Positions 1,687 through 12,425 of a stretch of DNA of 23,557 nt are shown here, one piece after another (positions within the stretch are counted from its first letter, which is position 1; each line of letters starts with the position of its first letter). The position numbers were made by a program, and so were the translations under genes. The DNA is from a virus. The stretch covers positions 1-23,557 of IMG/VR virus record IMGVR_UViG_3300047510_000931; one strand, given 5' to 3'. The notes beneath the pieces are model-generated. The model was given only the letters and a program-made list of their open reading frames with translations. It ran no database searches and had not been told where the DNA came from.

Positions 1687-1689
1687 TAG

Positions 1690-1763
1690 TGCTCCAGGTA
1701 GGACTTGAACCTACAACATCATGTTGCTAAGACATGCGCCTCTACCAATTGGACTACTAGAGC
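1690..1763 (-). tRNA. tRNA with UAG anticodon (Leu by anticodon), class I fold
   Basis: Complete cloverleaf on the minus strand: 7-bp acceptor GCTCTAG/CTGGAGC, TA at 8-9, D arm, anticodon stem CATGT/ACATG, loop CTTAGCA with anticodon UAG, 5-nt variable loop, T arm GTAGG/CCTAC with TTCAAGT, discriminator A. By anticodon it would read CUA/CUN leucine codons. However, bacterial leucine tRNAs normally have a long variable arm, and a C at position 37 is unusual, so the amino-acid identity is uncertain. CCA is not encoded. Confidence 0.8.
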
Positions 1764-1774
1764 AAAATATAAAG

Positions 1775-1801
1775 CCCTGCATTGTAATGGCTAATGCAGG
1801 G
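1775..1801 (-). terminator. Rho-independent terminator after the structured-RNA block
   Basis: A 9-bp perfect stem (CCCTGCATT/AATGCAGGG) with a 9-nt loop is followed on the minus strand by CTTTATATTTT. It sits between the structured RNA region (1811-2001) and the 5' end of the Leu(UAG) tRNA. It could also serve as a processing barrier for the downstream tRNA. On the plus strand it is followed by TTTTAT, so it may work in both directions. Confidence 0.7.
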
Positions 1802-1810
1802 TTTTATAAT

Positions 1811-2001
1811 TATTGTGAATAGGTGGATTGCCTTTTACCACCACGGATAAGTCAACAATACCATTGTATGATATACGCTTTCATCCGACCACCAGTTAGA
1901 CCCGCTAAGATCAGGACGCTAATCCCCCAGTGTACCTTACTCATCCCTTGCTGACAAAAGACTTCGTTCAGTCATATTCCAGAGTTGCCGTCGCTCCTCT
2001 G
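1811..2001 (-). ncRNA. Candidate structured non-coding RNA, about 190 nt
   Basis: This interval has no convincing reading frame, lies between tRNA-Trp and a terminator, and is transcribed with the upstream promoter at 2250-2279. On the minus strand several stems can be drawn: CAGAG/CTCTG (1980-2001), nested TGAC/GTCA and GACT/AGTC (1952-1974), TTAG/CTAA, ATCCG/CGGAT closing 1844-1887 with an inner ACAAT/ATTGT hairpin, and GGTGG/CCACC (1822-1842). It does not match tmRNA (no tRNA-like 3' T arm), RNase P RNA core motifs or hammerhead core motifs as far as can be judged by eye. Its function is unknown. Confidence 0.45.
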
Positions 2002-2005
2002 TTTG

Positions 2006-2073
2006 CACCGTGTCAAAGAATCGAACTCTGCAAGATCGGTTTTGGAGACCAATCCGTACCCAGTACCCACGAT
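2006..2073 (-). tRNA. tRNA-Trp (CCA anticodon) with shortened D arm
   Basis: Anticodon arm TTGGT-CTCCAAA-ACCGA gives anticodon CCA. The T arm is CAGAG-TTCGATT-CTTTG. The acceptor ATCGTGG pairs with ACACGGT over six of seven positions, and the discriminator is G, as expected for tryptophan. Only 14 nt lie between the acceptor and anticodon stems instead of about 19, so the D arm is short and poorly paired. It may be a minimal functional tRNA or a decaying copy. CCA is not encoded. Confidence 0.65.
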
Positions 2074-2099
2074 AGAGAGCAGTTTACATAGACGTGCTC

Positions 2100-2145
2100 A
2101 GGTCATTTTACCCAGTTTAATGACATCTGATAGGTCATTTAACCC
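2100..2145 (-). repeat. 14-nt direct repeat pair with mutually exclusive hairpins
   Basis: Two copies of AGGTCATTT-(T/A)-ACCC (2100-2113 and 2132-2145, 13 of 14 identical) flank an AATGAC element (2119-2124). AATGAC can pair with GTCATT of either copy (2102-2107 or 2134-2139), so two hairpins compete. The segment lies between tRNA-fMet and tRNA-Trp inside the same predicted transcript. The rest of 2074-2160 shows no gene. Confidence 0.5.
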
Positions 2146-2160
2146 CCACTACAGGATTAG

Positions 2161-2235
2161 TAGCAGAGACGGGATTCGAACCCGTGGCCTTCTGGTTATG
2201 AGCCAGACGAGATAACCGAGCTTCTCTACTCTGCG
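2161..2235 (-). tRNA. Initiator-like tRNA-Met (CAU)
   Basis: Cloverleaf with anticodon arm TCTGG-CTCATAA-CCAGA, T arm ACGGG-TTCGAAT-CCCGT and discriminator A. The first acceptor position is C1 opposite U72, a mismatch. An unpaired 1:72 position is the hallmark of bacterial initiator tRNA, and the D and anticodon regions (GCTCGG, CTCATAA, AGG after the stem) also resemble fMet. Only two of the usual three G:C pairs are present at the base of the anticodon loop. It is the first gene of the RNA transcript from the promoter at 2250-2279. CCA is not encoded. Confidence 0.8.
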
Positions 2236-2249
2236 TTGTTGTAATGTAT

Positions 2250-2279
2250 ATTATACACTAACACATAAATTCTTGTCAA
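2250..2279 (-). promoter_or_regulatory. Consensus promoter for the tRNA-fMet / tRNA-Trp / ncRNA transcript
   Basis: Minus strand -35 TTGACA (2274-2279), 18-nt spacer, -10 TATAAT (2250-2255). Predicted start is near 2243, a few nucleotides before the initiator-like tRNA. The rest of the 2236-2359 gap is very AT-rich and must also hold the divergent plus-strand promoter of the gene at 2360. There the -10 cannot be fixed; CATAAT and TATACT candidates both exist. Confidence 0.78.
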
Positions 2280-3495: not shown

Positions 3496-3918
3496 TTACT
3501 TAATGCGGATATTCTTTGGCTTCTTCTCAGCTGGAAGTTCAATCTTAACTGTTACGTTAAGCATACCGTCCTTGAGCTCAGCGTTATCTACATACGCATA
3601 TTCACCCAAAGCAAAGCTTCTTGTGAACTTTCTATTTGCAATACCACGATGTAGATAATCTGTTGTTACAGTTCCGTCTTCCTTAGATCCTTCGATCTTT
3701 AGAGTTCCGTCCTGCTCTGTGACAGTAATGTCTTCCTTTGTAAAGCCAGCAACAGCAAGTTCCACTACCCAAGTTTCTTCGTCTTTCTTTACGACGTTGT
3801 ATGGTGGGAACCCTTGAGAGTTTGTTGCTGTTGTATTGATTTTGTTGGCTAGTCTGTCAAAGCCGATGAAAAATGGATCATTAAATAATGAATTCCATGT
3901 AGTTGTATATGTAACCAT
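3496..3918 (-). CDS. Small heat-shock protein, Hsp20/alpha-crystallin family
   Basis: 140 residues. The N-terminal arm contains SLFNDPFFIGFDRL. The alpha-crystallin domain runs from PPYNVVKKDEETWVVELAVAGF through ITVTEQDGTLKIEG, the strand-loop region with FTRSFALGEYAYVDNAELKDGMLNV and TVKIELP. A C-terminal NIRIK tail supplies the I-x-I motif that docks between dimers. It is an ATP-independent holdase that oligomerises in the cytoplasm. T4-like and cyanophages also encode Hsp20, often active during virion assembly (established for family occurrence, role inferred). The AAAGGAGATATAA ribosome site precedes the ATG at 3918. Own promoter at 3978-4007. Confidence 0.93.
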   Translation of the reverse strand: MVTYTTTWNSLFNDPFFIGFDRLANKINTTATNSQGFPPYNVVKKDEETWVVELAVAGFTKEDITVTEQDGTLKIEGSKEDGTVTTDYLHRGIANRKFTRSFALGEYAYVDNAELKDGMLNVTVKIELPAEKKPKNIRIK

Positions 3919-7811: not shown

Positions 7812-8858
7812 TTATTTGCTAGATATCTCTGATATCCTTGCTTTTGCAAACTTTAGCATTGAGCCTCTTATTGGAGAATATCCGAGATCCTCTGCTTTTT
7901 TGCCACAAGAATCTACCATGAAATTAAAGAACTTTTTTACTGTATCGTTCTTAGAGTTCTTTTCCTTATAGGCTATTCCGTAAGTAAAAGTAGATATATT
8001 ATAGGATAGCTTATTAGGGTTCTTATAGTTTATTTTAACCGCCCCACTCTTATCTGCAACAAAATCTCCAAGAAATACAGATGCTGCTGCGGTGGTTGGT
8101 TGCATAAATCTTCCAGCTTCATTTTCAACAGAAATTGTTTTTAGATCTCTTGCATAAGATATTTCATTATATCCTATAGATCCGTTTGTAGTACTCTGAA
8201 CCATTGCAACTCCATGTGATCCAGAAGCGCTATTCATATAAACAGATTTGTTTATATCTCCAGGGAATACTGTTACAAAGTTTTTATTTCCTGGCTTAGT
8301 CCATATAGTTGGAGCAACGGCATTAAGGTATGAGGTGAATACTTCTGATGTTCCAGATCCATCCATACGGTACACAACTCGAATCTTCGTTGCTGGTATC
8401 TTAGGCAGTCTTGTACCTATCATGTTTTCTTTTAATATCTGTGGATCATTCCACATTGTTATTTGTCCTGCAAAAACTTTAGCTAGGGTATTTCTGCTCA
8501 TCTTAATATTAATTTTGTACCCATCAAGCCTATAAATGATTCCAATTGGTCCTGCTACAAGCGGTACATATACAAACTCTTTTGTTGGCCTAGGTTCTGA
8601 CCCAGAGTAAGGAACATCTGACATAGCAAAATCTGTTATCCCATTGGTAAACATATTCTTACCTGCCCCAGACCCATTTGGACCATATGAAATAGAGTCT
8701 CCTGTAGATTTAAGAAATTCGACCCTACATCTGTCTACAAAATTAGCAGAGAATGTGGATCCAGCACCTGTAAGGTTATCGGCATGTGAAGTAGTAATAA
8801 AAAAAGCATTAGCTAAAATTGCTAATGCTAAAGGTATGATAATAGATTTTATTTTCAT
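7812..8858 (-). CDS. pstS: Phosphate-binding PstS-like secreted protein
   Basis: 348 residues with a Sec signal peptide (MKIKSIIIPLALAILANAFF...SHA, cut near residue 26). The mature chain has PstS signatures: LTGAGSTFSANFVDRC at its start, GPNGSGAGKNMF, DFAMSDVPYSG, KVFAGQITMWNDP, YRMDGSGTSEVFTSYL and SGSHGVAMVQSTTNGSIGY. These loops bind phosphate in the periplasmic-binding fold. PstS feeds the host PstCAB importer and is a known auxiliary gene of marine phages; here it would keep phosphate flowing during infection. There is no Cys in the signal peptide, so no lipid anchor as usual for Gram-positive PstS. The ATG follows the -10 by 6 nt with no ribosome site, so the mRNA looks leaderless. 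Terminators lie on both sides. Confidence 0.92.
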   Translation of the reverse strand: MKIKSIIIPLALAILANAFFITTSHADNLTGAGSTFSANFVDRCRVEFLKSTGDSISYGPNGSGAGKNMFTNGITDFAMSDVPYSGSEPRPTKEFVYVPLVAGPIGIIYRLDGYKINIKMSRNTLAKVFAGQITMWNDPQILKENMIGTRLPKIPATKIRVVYRMDGSGTSEVFTSYLNAVAPTIWTKPGNKNFVTVFPGDINKSVYMNSASGSHGVAMVQSTTNGSIGYNEISYARDLKTISVENEAGRFMQPTTAAASVFLGDFVADKSGAVKINYKNPNKLSYNISTFTYGIAYKEKNSKNDTVKKFFNFMVDSCGKKAEDLGYSPIRGSMLKFAKARISEISSK

Positions 8859-8970: not shown

Positions 8971-10098
8971 TTACTTAACTAGTGTAACCTTAGCCTTTGG
9001 ATTCTTTGCATTCCACTTCTTAGCGAGTGCATTGAATGATGCCTTGATCTTTGCAAGCTCTGCTGCATTATTTGACTTGAGCTTTGCAATTTCTGCAGTT
9101 GCATCTGCAAGTGCCTTGTCTGATGCGAGCTTCGCTGAAACTGCTTCTGACTTAAGCTTTGCAATCTCTGCTTCTGCTGCCAATTTAGCTGTTGCTGCTG
9201 CTGCCTTCTCTGCTGCGAGAGCTGTGGCTGCTACTGTTGCATCTGCTGCACGTCCTGCTTTCTCTGCTGCGAGAGCTGCTGCAGATGCTGCAAGCTCTCC
9301 AACAAGATCACGAACTGCGACTGACTTTACAACGCTTGATACTGGTGTATTAAATCCAGCAACTGTTGCTGCAATGTCTCCTGTTGCTGCTGAAACAACC
9401 AATGTGGTTGTACCAGTAGTAGGAAGTGTTACCTTGAATTCTGCTGAACCAAAGTTTGTTAGTGTAGCACCTGTTGTAGCAGTTGTTGTATCAACAGTGC
9501 CATTCACAATGAGTGCTGTGAGTGTCTTACCAGAAATCTTGTTTCCGAATACGTCTGTAGCAGTTGCTGTAACTGTTACTACGCTTGATGTTGATCCAGA
9601 ATCATTTCCAGTAAGTGCTACTGTGTTGATCTTTCCTGCTGTACCCTGTACATAGTATGTAAGAGTTGTGCCACCGTTGTTAATCACAACTGTACCGACT
9701 GCTGTTGTCTTTGTATAAACATAGAATGTAGCAGTTGTGCCAGTACCTGTTGCAATTGTAGTTGAAGCAGATCCTGATGCTGCAGTAACTGGTGCTGCTG
9801 CAGTAGCGGTTGCTAGAACGATTGTTGCATTTGTAGCAGTTGCTGATACGCTTGTACCAGTATCAACTGTTGCAACAAACTTTACAACGTCGCCATCTTC
9901 GATAGAGTTATCTTCTGGGACTGGACGTGTAATTGCTGTTGCTGCTGATGTGCCAGTAGTAACGGTTGTCCATGTTGTTGAACCACCTGATACTGCACCT
10001 GTTGATGTTGCAACTGTCATTGGAGCCGCTGATGCTGGAGCCACAGCAAGAACTGTTGCGCCAAGTACAGAAGCGACTAGAATTGATAGTTTCTTCAT
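8971..10098 (-). CDS. Secreted Ala/Thr-rich Ig-like surface (S-layer-like) protein
   Basis: 375 residues. Signal peptide MKKLSILVASVLGATVLAVA...ASA, cut at about 24. The mature part (25-255) is made of beta-rich Thr/Ala/Val/Ser segments. It includes SVVTVTATATDVFGNKISGKTLTALI, a bacterial Ig-like (Big) pattern. Residues 262-345 form an Ala-rich coiled coil with repeats AALAAEKA and AEIAKLKS, and the basic C-terminus reads AKKWNAKNPKAKVTLVK. No sortase motif or C-terminal membrane anchor is present. Base and codon use are clearly more GC-rich than the neighbours, so recent capture from the host is likely. Probable role: coat of the cell surface, or masking of a receptor. The GAAGAGG ribosome site is about 13 nt from the ATG. 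It has its own consensus promoter. Confidence 0.82.
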   Translation of the reverse strand: MKKLSILVASVLGATVLAVAPASAAPMTVATSTGAVSGGSTTWTTVTTGTSAATAITRPVPEDNSIEDGDVVKFVATVDTGTSVSATATNATIVLATATAAAPVTAASGSASTTIATGTGTTATFYVYTKTTAVGTVVINNGGTTLTYYVQGTAGKINTVALTGNDSGSTSSVVTVTATATDVFGNKISGKTLTALIVNGTVDTTTATTGATLTNFGSAEFKVTLPTTGTTTLVVSAATGDIAATVAGFNTPVSSVVKSVAVRDLVGELAASAAALAAEKAGRAADATVAATALAAEKAAAATAKLAAEAEIAKLKSEAVSAKLASDKALADATAEIAKLKSNNAAELAKIKASFNALAKKWNAKNPKAKVTLVK

Positions 10099-10486: not shown

Positions 10487-10685
10487 TTGATTCTGTCAAC
10501 ATTTCTGCTACGCTATTAAAATGAGTCATGAATCTATTTATAGTAAAACTCACATACTTCTCAGCACGATCTAAGTTTTCTAACATAACTTCTTGGTCTT
10601 CTGGGTCGCTAGAATTCTCAAAGAACTCTGCTCCAAACTCCGCTACTACTTTCTTAACAATTACTTCTAAGTCGTCGTAATTCAT
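10479..10685 (-). CDS. Hypothetical acidic helical protein, 68 aa
   Basis: Start set at ATG 10685 (MNYDDLEVIVKK), which overlaps the protease stop as ATGA. A longer in-frame reading has no coupling support. The protein is acidic and helical (EFGAEFFENSSDPEDQEVML, FTINRFMTHFNSVAEML). No family recognised. Position between protease and DUF1599 genes gives no specific clue. Confidence 0.62.
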   Translation of the reverse strand: MNYDDLEVIVKKVVAEFGAEFFENSSDPEDQEVMLENLDRAEKYVSFTINRFMTHFNSVAEMLTESND

Positions 10686-11221
10686 TTTGTGTGTAATACC
10701 TCCACTACGTCTATAGGCCCCATACATGAGGTTGAATATTTAGTTGCTGCATCAACAGCTATTCTTACTCTTTTCTTACCATCTGACCAAGCCTCTGTAG
10801 AATGCAAAGAACCGTATGCATACTCTGAACCGCTTCCAACCGATAGATGGTTTGTTGCAAATCTTGTCATCGACATTACACCCGCATCATGTTCATACAT
10901 TAATCCGTTTACGACAATGATCATGCCAAAATCTGCTTCTTTATCCTGCGTACTGAACACAAAATGCTCGTCGTAGAATTCTTTAAGTGATTTGGTAAAT
11001 TCATTTAACATGAACTTATCTGTATCTTTTTTTGGTGCTGGGGGTACAAAGTTATACATAACCTTTTCGCCATCCATGCTTCCGTAGTATCCAAAAAGAT
11101 ACTGTCCAGTCTTCCAAACTTTTGGGTGAGCTAACGGCAATATAATATTGCTATCAGATGCACCTCTGTCACCTGCAATGTATGAACCTTTTGAATTTAC
11201 TACCGCAACTATGCAGGTCAT
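10682..11221 (-). CDS. Ntn-hydrolase of the proteasome beta / HslV superfamily
   Basis: 179 residues beginning MTCIVAVV. After loss of Met, Thr1 would be the free nucleophile. Asp17 (in GDRGAS) and Lys33 (in HPKVWK) fall exactly where the 20S beta subunit and HslV have their catalytic Asp17 and Lys33. A GSGS motif (VGSGSEYAYGSL) and AVDAATKYST follow as in the family. There is no propeptide, as in HslV. No alpha subunit or ATPase (HslU, Mpa) is nearby, so it either forms a self-assembled peptidase or acts with host factors. Role could be maturation of virion proteins or removal of host proteins (inference). Starts with a 4-nt overlap with the preceding gene. Confidence 0.85.
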   Translation of the reverse strand: MTCIVAVVNSKGSYIAGDRGASDSNIILPLAHPKVWKTGQYLFGYYGSMDGEKVMYNFVPPAPKKDTDKFMLNEFTKSLKEFYDEHFVFSTQDKEADFGMIIVVNGLMYEHDAGVMSMTRFATNHLSVGSGSEYAYGSLHSTEAWSDGKKRVRIAVDAATKYSTSCMGPIDVVEVLHTK

Positions 11222-11877: not shown

Positions 11878-12124
11878 CTCCAGGAACTCCTTCGAACTCG
11901 CATCTTACACCAAAAGATTCTATTACTTTTCTAACTAATGTTATGTAATCGGTTATAACTACCCTCTGATTAATATCATAGGACATTATATTATCTTCAT
12001 ACATTCTTATAGTTAAAAATTCTGGGTATTCAACAATATCAATTAAAATTCCAGGAAAGGGCTTTTTTACTTGCCTTACCGCACCAGCCATTTGTTTGGT
12101 ATAGAATACCTTACTTCCAGCCAT
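11861..12124 (-). CDS. Hypothetical protein, 87 aa
   Basis: Not recognised. The sequence MAGSKVFYTKQMAGAVRQ leads into PFPGILIDIVEYPEFLTIRM and a strand-helix pattern ending FEGVPGDGKRK. The N-terminal basic segment and the following beta strands give no named family. It overlaps the WhiB gene by 14 nt. Confidence 0.6.
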   Translation of the reverse strand: MAGSKVFYTKQMAGAVRQVKKPFPGILIDIVEYPEFLTIRMYEDNIMSYDINQRVVITDYITLVRKVIESFGVRCEFEGVPGDGKRK

Positions 12125-12425
12125 GTCTTGCTTTCCACTTTTTCCAAAACTCTTGTGTCTTGTGTGCGTTTCTAGTCTTGTCTATCTTACCTAAAGATAA
12201 ATAAACTCCGCCCCACACACCGTACTCGCTATTTTCAACACCTGCAAGTAGGCAGTCCTTAGCAACTGGACATATCATGCACATCTCATCTATATTCTTA
12301 GCTAAGATTGCATCGTTTTCATAATCATCAAAGAAATAATTTGTTTCGATTCCACTGCATGTAGCAATGTCTGTCCAGTTAATATCTTCTTTATCTACAC
12401 CTAAAATATCAAGTATTTCTGACAT
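12111..12425 (-). CDS. WhiB-family iron-sulfur regulator
   Basis: 104 residues with the four cluster cysteines in the family order: Cys23 (IATCSG), then CxxCxxxxxC at Cys49, Cys52 and Cys58 (MCMICPVAKDCLLAG), followed by the beta-turn GVWGGVY (69-74). The C-terminus is basic (RNAHKTQEFWKKWKARHGWK), fitting DNA contact. WhiB proteins hold a [4Fe-4S] cluster and bind sigma factor A to change transcription; actinophage WhiB (for example TM4 WhiBTM4) can inhibit host septation and superinfection. This gene is the best single marker of an actinobacterial host. It lies second in the transcript from the promoter at 12654-12682. Confidence 0.93.
   Translation of the reverse strand: MSEILDILGVDKEDINWTDIATCSGIETNYFFDDYENDAILAKNIDEMCMICPVAKDCLLAGVENSEYGVWGGVYLSLGKIDKTRNAHKTQEFWKKWKARHGWK

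Follow-up and report, generated by a model that had tools for sequence, protein, structure and literature searches.

What is encoded in the stretch of about 190 nt that lies between a tRNA gene and a terminator-like hairpin in a phage sequence? The window, i.e., the whole stretch of DNA that was analyzed (23,557 nt), is a 23.6-kb phage fragment. Among named phages, Streptomyces phages of the Stanwilliamsviridae have the terminase large subunits most similar to that of the window (~60-63% identity). The window also encodes a WhiB-family regulator (12111-12425, minus strand; Pfam PF02467), and WhiB proteins form an actinobacterial family. In view of the terminase kinship and the WhiB gene, the host is most likely an actinobacterium.

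The stretch is a member of the known manA RNA family, on the minus strand of this actinobacterial phage. In an Rfam scan, as suggested in a preliminary description of the locus, the minus strand of positions 1812-1998 matched RF01745 (manA RNA) with 63.9 bits (E 2e-14), above the curated cut-off of 55.2 bits. The match is full length (model positions 1-192). Subclass model R1, of which the window copy is itself a part, gives 179.1 bits over 1812-2005. The preliminary description, which gave no strand, had presented an unassigned structured RNA beside phage tRNAs; the RNA is indeed structured and adjoins tRNAs, but it now has a family. The limits proposed for it, 1811-2001, were almost exact, P1 beginning at 2001 and the final model position falling at 1812. 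Also as described, the stretch contains no ORF, its GC content exceeds that of the surroundings (0.43-0.50 vs. 0.24-0.35 outside the tRNA block), and no match to tmRNA, RNase P RNA, or hammerhead models is listed on the element (ARAGORN, Rfam).

Thermodynamics by itself would not prove that this RNA is structured, its folding energy having a z of -1.9, with 9 of 200 shuffles folding equally well. The evidence for structure is the manA family match together with covariation. When 30 distinct relatives were aligned on one fold, 43 of 62 pairs changed on both sides and 85.5% of cells were paired. The covariation score was 0.491, compared with 0.187 ± 0.008 for shuffles and at most 0.165 when the partners were slid, and none of 500 shuffles attained the observed value. 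Covariation in these relatives supports P1, P2, P3, P4 with both of its hairpins, the outer helix of P5, and P6 (Table 1). The inner P5 helix (P5b) is unsupported.

Table 1. Features of the manA locus in the window, in minus-strand order
Feature	Positions	Strand	Evidence or remarks
Sigma-70-type promoter, TTGACA-18-TATAAT	2250..2279	-	12/12 consensus matches
tRNA-Met (CAT), first gene of the operon	2160..2235	-	ARAGORN; Rfam 61.8 bits
tRNA-Trp (CCA), directly upstream of manA	2005..2073	-	ARAGORN; Rfam tRNA gathering score not reached
manA-family RNA	1812..2001	-	~190 nt; 5' end near 2001-2004, 3' end 1812
P1 hairpin, GACG loop	1980..2001	-	88% of cells paired; 7/9 pairs change both sides
P2 closing helix, 5' strand	1975..1979	-	100% of cells paired; 4/5 pairs change both sides
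P3, conserved UGACUGAA...UAAGGU internal loop	1934..1972	-	Covariation, helices 3-5; RF01745 alignment
P4, two UUAGCG-loop hairpins (loops 1917-1922, 1903-1908)	1890..1932	-	Covariation, helices 6-8
P5	1844..1887	-	Outer helix 94% paired, covaries; inner helix 58% paired
P6 hairpin, GGUGG-UAAAAGGCAAU-CCACC	1822..1842	-	Covariation, helix 11
P2 closing helix, 3' strand	1817..1821	-	Covariation, helix 2
Hairpin, probably two-way terminator	1768..1808	-	Just 3' of manA; terminator scans
tRNA-Leu (TAG), downstream of hairpin	1689..1763	-	ARAGORN; Rfam 53.6 bits

The window copy shares helices P1-P6, the conserved UGACUGAA...UAAGGU, and GGU...AAUCC with RF01745, the structure of which was corrected in Rfam release 14.3 (PMC7779021). 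However, the consensus has three P4 hairpins, whereas the window has two, both with UUAGCG loops, the third being deleted in its RF01745 alignment. Three P4 hairpins are part of the consensus structure and not a formal criterion, and we have treated the missing one as a subclass difference.

These results bear on two alternatives. The location of the site within a tRNA array, next to a tRNA-Trp that is degenerate in appearance, might be taken to mean that the stretch consists of degenerate tRNA remnants or of spacer between tRNA genes. The preliminary description had named such remnants, as well as a lack of covariation in homologs, as findings that would speak against it. The strong covariation refutes this reading, to which we attach almost no probability. 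The manA match is full length, neither ARAGORN nor the Rfam tRNA model has a hit inside 1812-2001, and alignment to survey loci L331 (90%) or L301 (84%) persists at this place only in manA and the tRNAs. The same description had also raised the option of a ribozyme. A phage ribozyme, self-cleaving or similar, would be in keeping with a complex fold and conserved internal loops, but no ribozyme family reaches threshold on the element (Rfam), and the element begins and stops at tRNA ends, promoters, and terminators, which would provide its ends without self-cleavage. Nothing specific points to a ribozyme, and we have rejected it as extremely improbable.

We surveyed viral contigs and named phages for manA using DNA patterns, which yielded 226 loci in 59 clusters at 90%. 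A loose pattern gave mainly chance matches, and stricter ones were used instead. The pattern motifs GGTA, AATCC, and TTAGCG are invariant by construction in the resulting loci, while helix covariation and genomic context lie outside the search. The window falls in a subclass with two UUAGCG P4 loops, which comprises 29 of the 59 clusters. Of 50 records tested with RF01745, 48 match, 31 of them above the cut-off and 17 below it, with scores mostly of 160-194 bits for marine cyanophage copies and mostly of 38-82 for UUAGCG copies. In return, a subclass-only model recovers the cyanophage manA RNAs (E about 1e-7 to 1e-13). Since each model recovers the other's copies, all of them belong to a single family, a divergent branch of which is in part missed by current annotation. 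No feature is annotated at the manA site of Corynebacterium phages, and the copy in Corynebacterium phage Zion, with 38.5 bits, is below the RF01745 cut-off.

As for its distribution, the subclass pattern had a single match in 84,980 cellular genomes (L334). Since this lone match fails the model (11.8 bits, partial), the subclass appears, at the stringency of the pattern, to be restricted to viruses. BLASTN with the RNA found no match in plasmids, and in phages it gave clear matches only for the Corynebacterium group, the weak match in Rhodococcus phage Francesca being confirmed by RF01745. Mycobacterium phage Erdmann, which has a large tRNA array, lacks manA, and one survey locus (L318) has no relative among named phages. 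Because RF01745 has no match in 15 terminase relatives of the window, some of whose records are fragments, manA seems to be dispensable or patchy among related phages.

The genomic setting of the RNA in the window is a tRNA operon, in contrast to the 5' UTR site of the described family. In minus-strand order, the locus consists of a promoter, tRNA-Met, an 86-nt gap, tRNA-Trp, manA, a hairpin, tRNA-Leu, and a second promoter (11/12, 1686-1658). The consensus promoter invoked in the preliminary description is real, lies upstream of tRNA-Met, and serves the entire operon. P1 of manA begins 3 nt past the end of tRNA-Trp, and downstream of manA there is no ORF in the window, but the hairpin and tRNA-Leu instead. 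The good terminator that had been described is there as a terminator-like hairpin, which a standard scan calls on the plus strand. On the minus strand, the same stem is accepted by a looser scan, but its T-run is weaker.

Two other elements of this operon are unusual. The tRNA-Trp, which scores under the Rfam tRNA cut-off and has a short D arm (GUAC-UGG-GUAC by eye), may be decaying or specialized. The gap between tRNA-Met and tRNA-Trp (2074-2159, minus strand) contains a repeated AATGACCT and has a predicted fold of -19.5 kcal/mol.

A similar setting is seen across the subclass. Among 29 non-redundant members, a tRNA ends within 20 nt upstream of manA in at least 13, compared with 1.2% for positions drawn at random from the same contigs, and one starts within 20 nt downstream in at least 9, mostly at 2-5 nt. 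Both counts are lower bounds because ARAGORN misses tRNAs with a visible T-arm (L262, L267, and L313). In 8 of the 13 members, the tRNA end is exactly 3 nt before P1. The adjoining tRNAs differ between copies: manA lies between tRNA-Trp and tRNA-Ser in Zion and between tRNA-Met and tRNA-Lys in Francesca, and it fills the gap between tRNA-Gln and tRNA-Trp in Streptomyces phage Wakanda. For Zion (L002:3855-4351), the annotated tRNA strand is opposite to that given by ARAGORN and Rfam, and the computed strand was used. Where no tRNA lies upstream, promoters scoring at least 8 are found in 5 of 16 members (background 12%, p 0.03). In four loci (L257, L283, L291, and L304), 9-10 nt separate the end of the -10 box from P1, a spacing with which transcription would start where a tRNA otherwise ends. 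Where no tRNA abuts downstream, a terminator follows in 10 of 20 members (background 6.9%, p 2e-7). The in-register site between tRNA genes suggests that manA is released together with tRNAs and is not a switch placed before a protein gene.

The manA RNA was described in 2010 by Weinberg as a riboswitch candidate found in 5' UTRs, in marine metagenomes and cyanophages (PMC2864571). It has been filed since then as a cis-regulatory, riboswitch-like element without a ligand, and we found no published function for it in the literature. Because of its placement beside tRNAs, its own promoters and terminators, and the unrelated genes downstream, we favor a stand-alone RNA acting in trans over the "cis-regulatory" label of Rfam. 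We thus consider it probable that the manA RNA of this actinobacterial phage functions as an independent structured molecule that acts in trans. The first promoter would give rise to a transcript with tRNA-Met, tRNA-Trp, and manA, ended by the hairpin. When the 3' end of tRNA-Trp is trimmed by RNase Z or exonucleases, the 5' end of manA would be released a few nucleotides upstream of P1. As for the 3' end, it would be set by the terminator here and, in relatives, by the cut that RNase P makes at the following tRNA. During infection, the mature RNA of ~190 nt would then act in trans, with translation or tRNA-related processes as its most likely targets.

Alternatively, manA could be a cis-regulatory element, i.e., the riboswitch candidate of the published 5' UTRs, which in the window would control read-through into tRNA-Leu via the hairpin. 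The hairpin does come after manA, the Rfam type is "Cis-reg," and the copies in 12 of 12 named cyanophages begin at a promoter, most of them preceding a gene. However, no ORF follows in the window, the RNA occurs inside tRNA arrays, and 2-5 nt separate manA from the next tRNA in these arrays, which leaves no space for an expression platform. Moreover, the 3' strand of P2 covaries and is therefore not a fixed anti-Shine-Dalgarno. The downstream genes of the whole survey are unrelated (25 reading frames in 17 families) and form no coherent set of targets, and the adjoining tRNAs vary as well. The genes downstream of manA do not look like a regulon. For these reasons, we judge cis-regulation to be unlikely in the window.

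In marine cyanophages, manA stands at the head of mRNAs, and cis-regulation is possible. A promoter that agrees with the consensus at 11-12 of 12 positions precedes manA in all 12 named cyanophages, its -10 box ending 0-10 nt upstream of the RNA (background 1.7%), and in 7 of them the -35 box lies inside the terminator hairpin of the upstream gene. The genes before manA include gp23, pstS, an NAD synthetase gene, regA, and a ferredoxin gene, and those after it gp32, talC, a purL-annotated gene, a carbamoyltransferase gene, and small genes without known function. A cis role fits there because most copies precede a gene without a convincing terminator, which is found after manA in 3 of the 12, and because a start codon lies within ~20-45 nt downstream of the short-class copies. 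In cyanophage P-RSM6, a borderline glutamine riboswitch (RF01739/RF01704; L337:728-780, plus strand) lies just upstream of a short gene and manA. Several marine copies (L142, L160, and L250) have a similar downstream hairpin, GACCTAAGATGCAA...GGGCAGA[T/G]GGTC, which ends in a T-run in L160 and has no Rfam match there.

We are evenly divided on whether the stand-alone reading extends to the whole manA family. The family would then not be a riboswitch but a widespread phage-borne RNA that has fixed ends, occurs in actinophages, cyanophages, and others, resides in tRNA arrays or in a promoter unit of its own, and acts in trans on translation or the tRNA machinery of the infected cell. The metabolic genes to which it owes its cis-regulatory label would be neighbors by chance. 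At least the subclass copies that sit in register between phage tRNA genes can be argued to be independent RNAs. For these, one would look for a trans target instead of a ligand, and Zion, Francesca, and Wakanda are named phages in which the role of manA can be examined.

In a narrower form of the stand-alone reading, manA would serve as a tRNA-like decoy or substrate. The stack of P6 on P2 would mimic a T-arm and acceptor stem, so that the RNA could bind tRNA-handling enzymes or distract defense nucleases that cut tRNAs. Read by eye, P6 resembles a T-arm by its position and by GGU...AAUCC, which offers a lead. The 3' strand of P2 directly follows P6, as in tRNA, Wakanda has GGUGGAAUCC, and tRNAs are close by. 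Against such mimicry, P2 has 5 pairs instead of 7, P6 usually has a loop of 11 nt, a CCA end and an anticodon arm are absent, and no tRNA model matches the RNA. In addition, GGUA and AATCC are conserved in the survey partly because the search pattern required them. We therefore regard a decoy as rather improbable.

Adjacency of manA to tRNAs as such is not new. A 178-nt manA was reported in an RNA-seq study of the Bifidobacterium megaplasmid pMP7017, in a region with 20 tRNA genes and a tmRNA, by authors who already stated that tRNAs sometimes adjoin manA (PMC10832533). The copies in pMP7017 and in the window thus both lie in tRNA-gene regions. The same arrangement beside tRNAs is seen for rnaC and rnaD (species 1 and 2) of phage T4, small stable RNAs without a known role (PMC3014915, PMC9697503). 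They lie where the T4 tRNA array ends, rnaD at a distance of 1 nt and rnaC at one of 6 nt from the neighboring gene. The T4 tRNA cluster has no match to RF01745 or R1, which gives no indication of homology between manA and rnaC/rnaD. The placement of manA suggests a theme shared with these unexplained RNAs. Another phage-borne structured RNA without a known function is wcaG, which lies near manA in S-CREM1 (PMC9964418). It is a different Rfam family from manA and was not found in the window by Rfam.

Finally, several proteins encoded on the minus strand of the window deserve mention. The product of 10682-11221, which has no Pfam match, looks by eye like an Ntn-hydrolase or proteasome-type peptidase. 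That of 8971-10098, also without a Pfam match, is Ala/Thr-rich, exported, and repeat-like, with a Lys-rich C terminus. This manA-carrying phage also has Hsp20 and PstS-like genes (3496-3918 and 7812-8858, respectively), which are kinds of auxiliary genes known from cyanophages.
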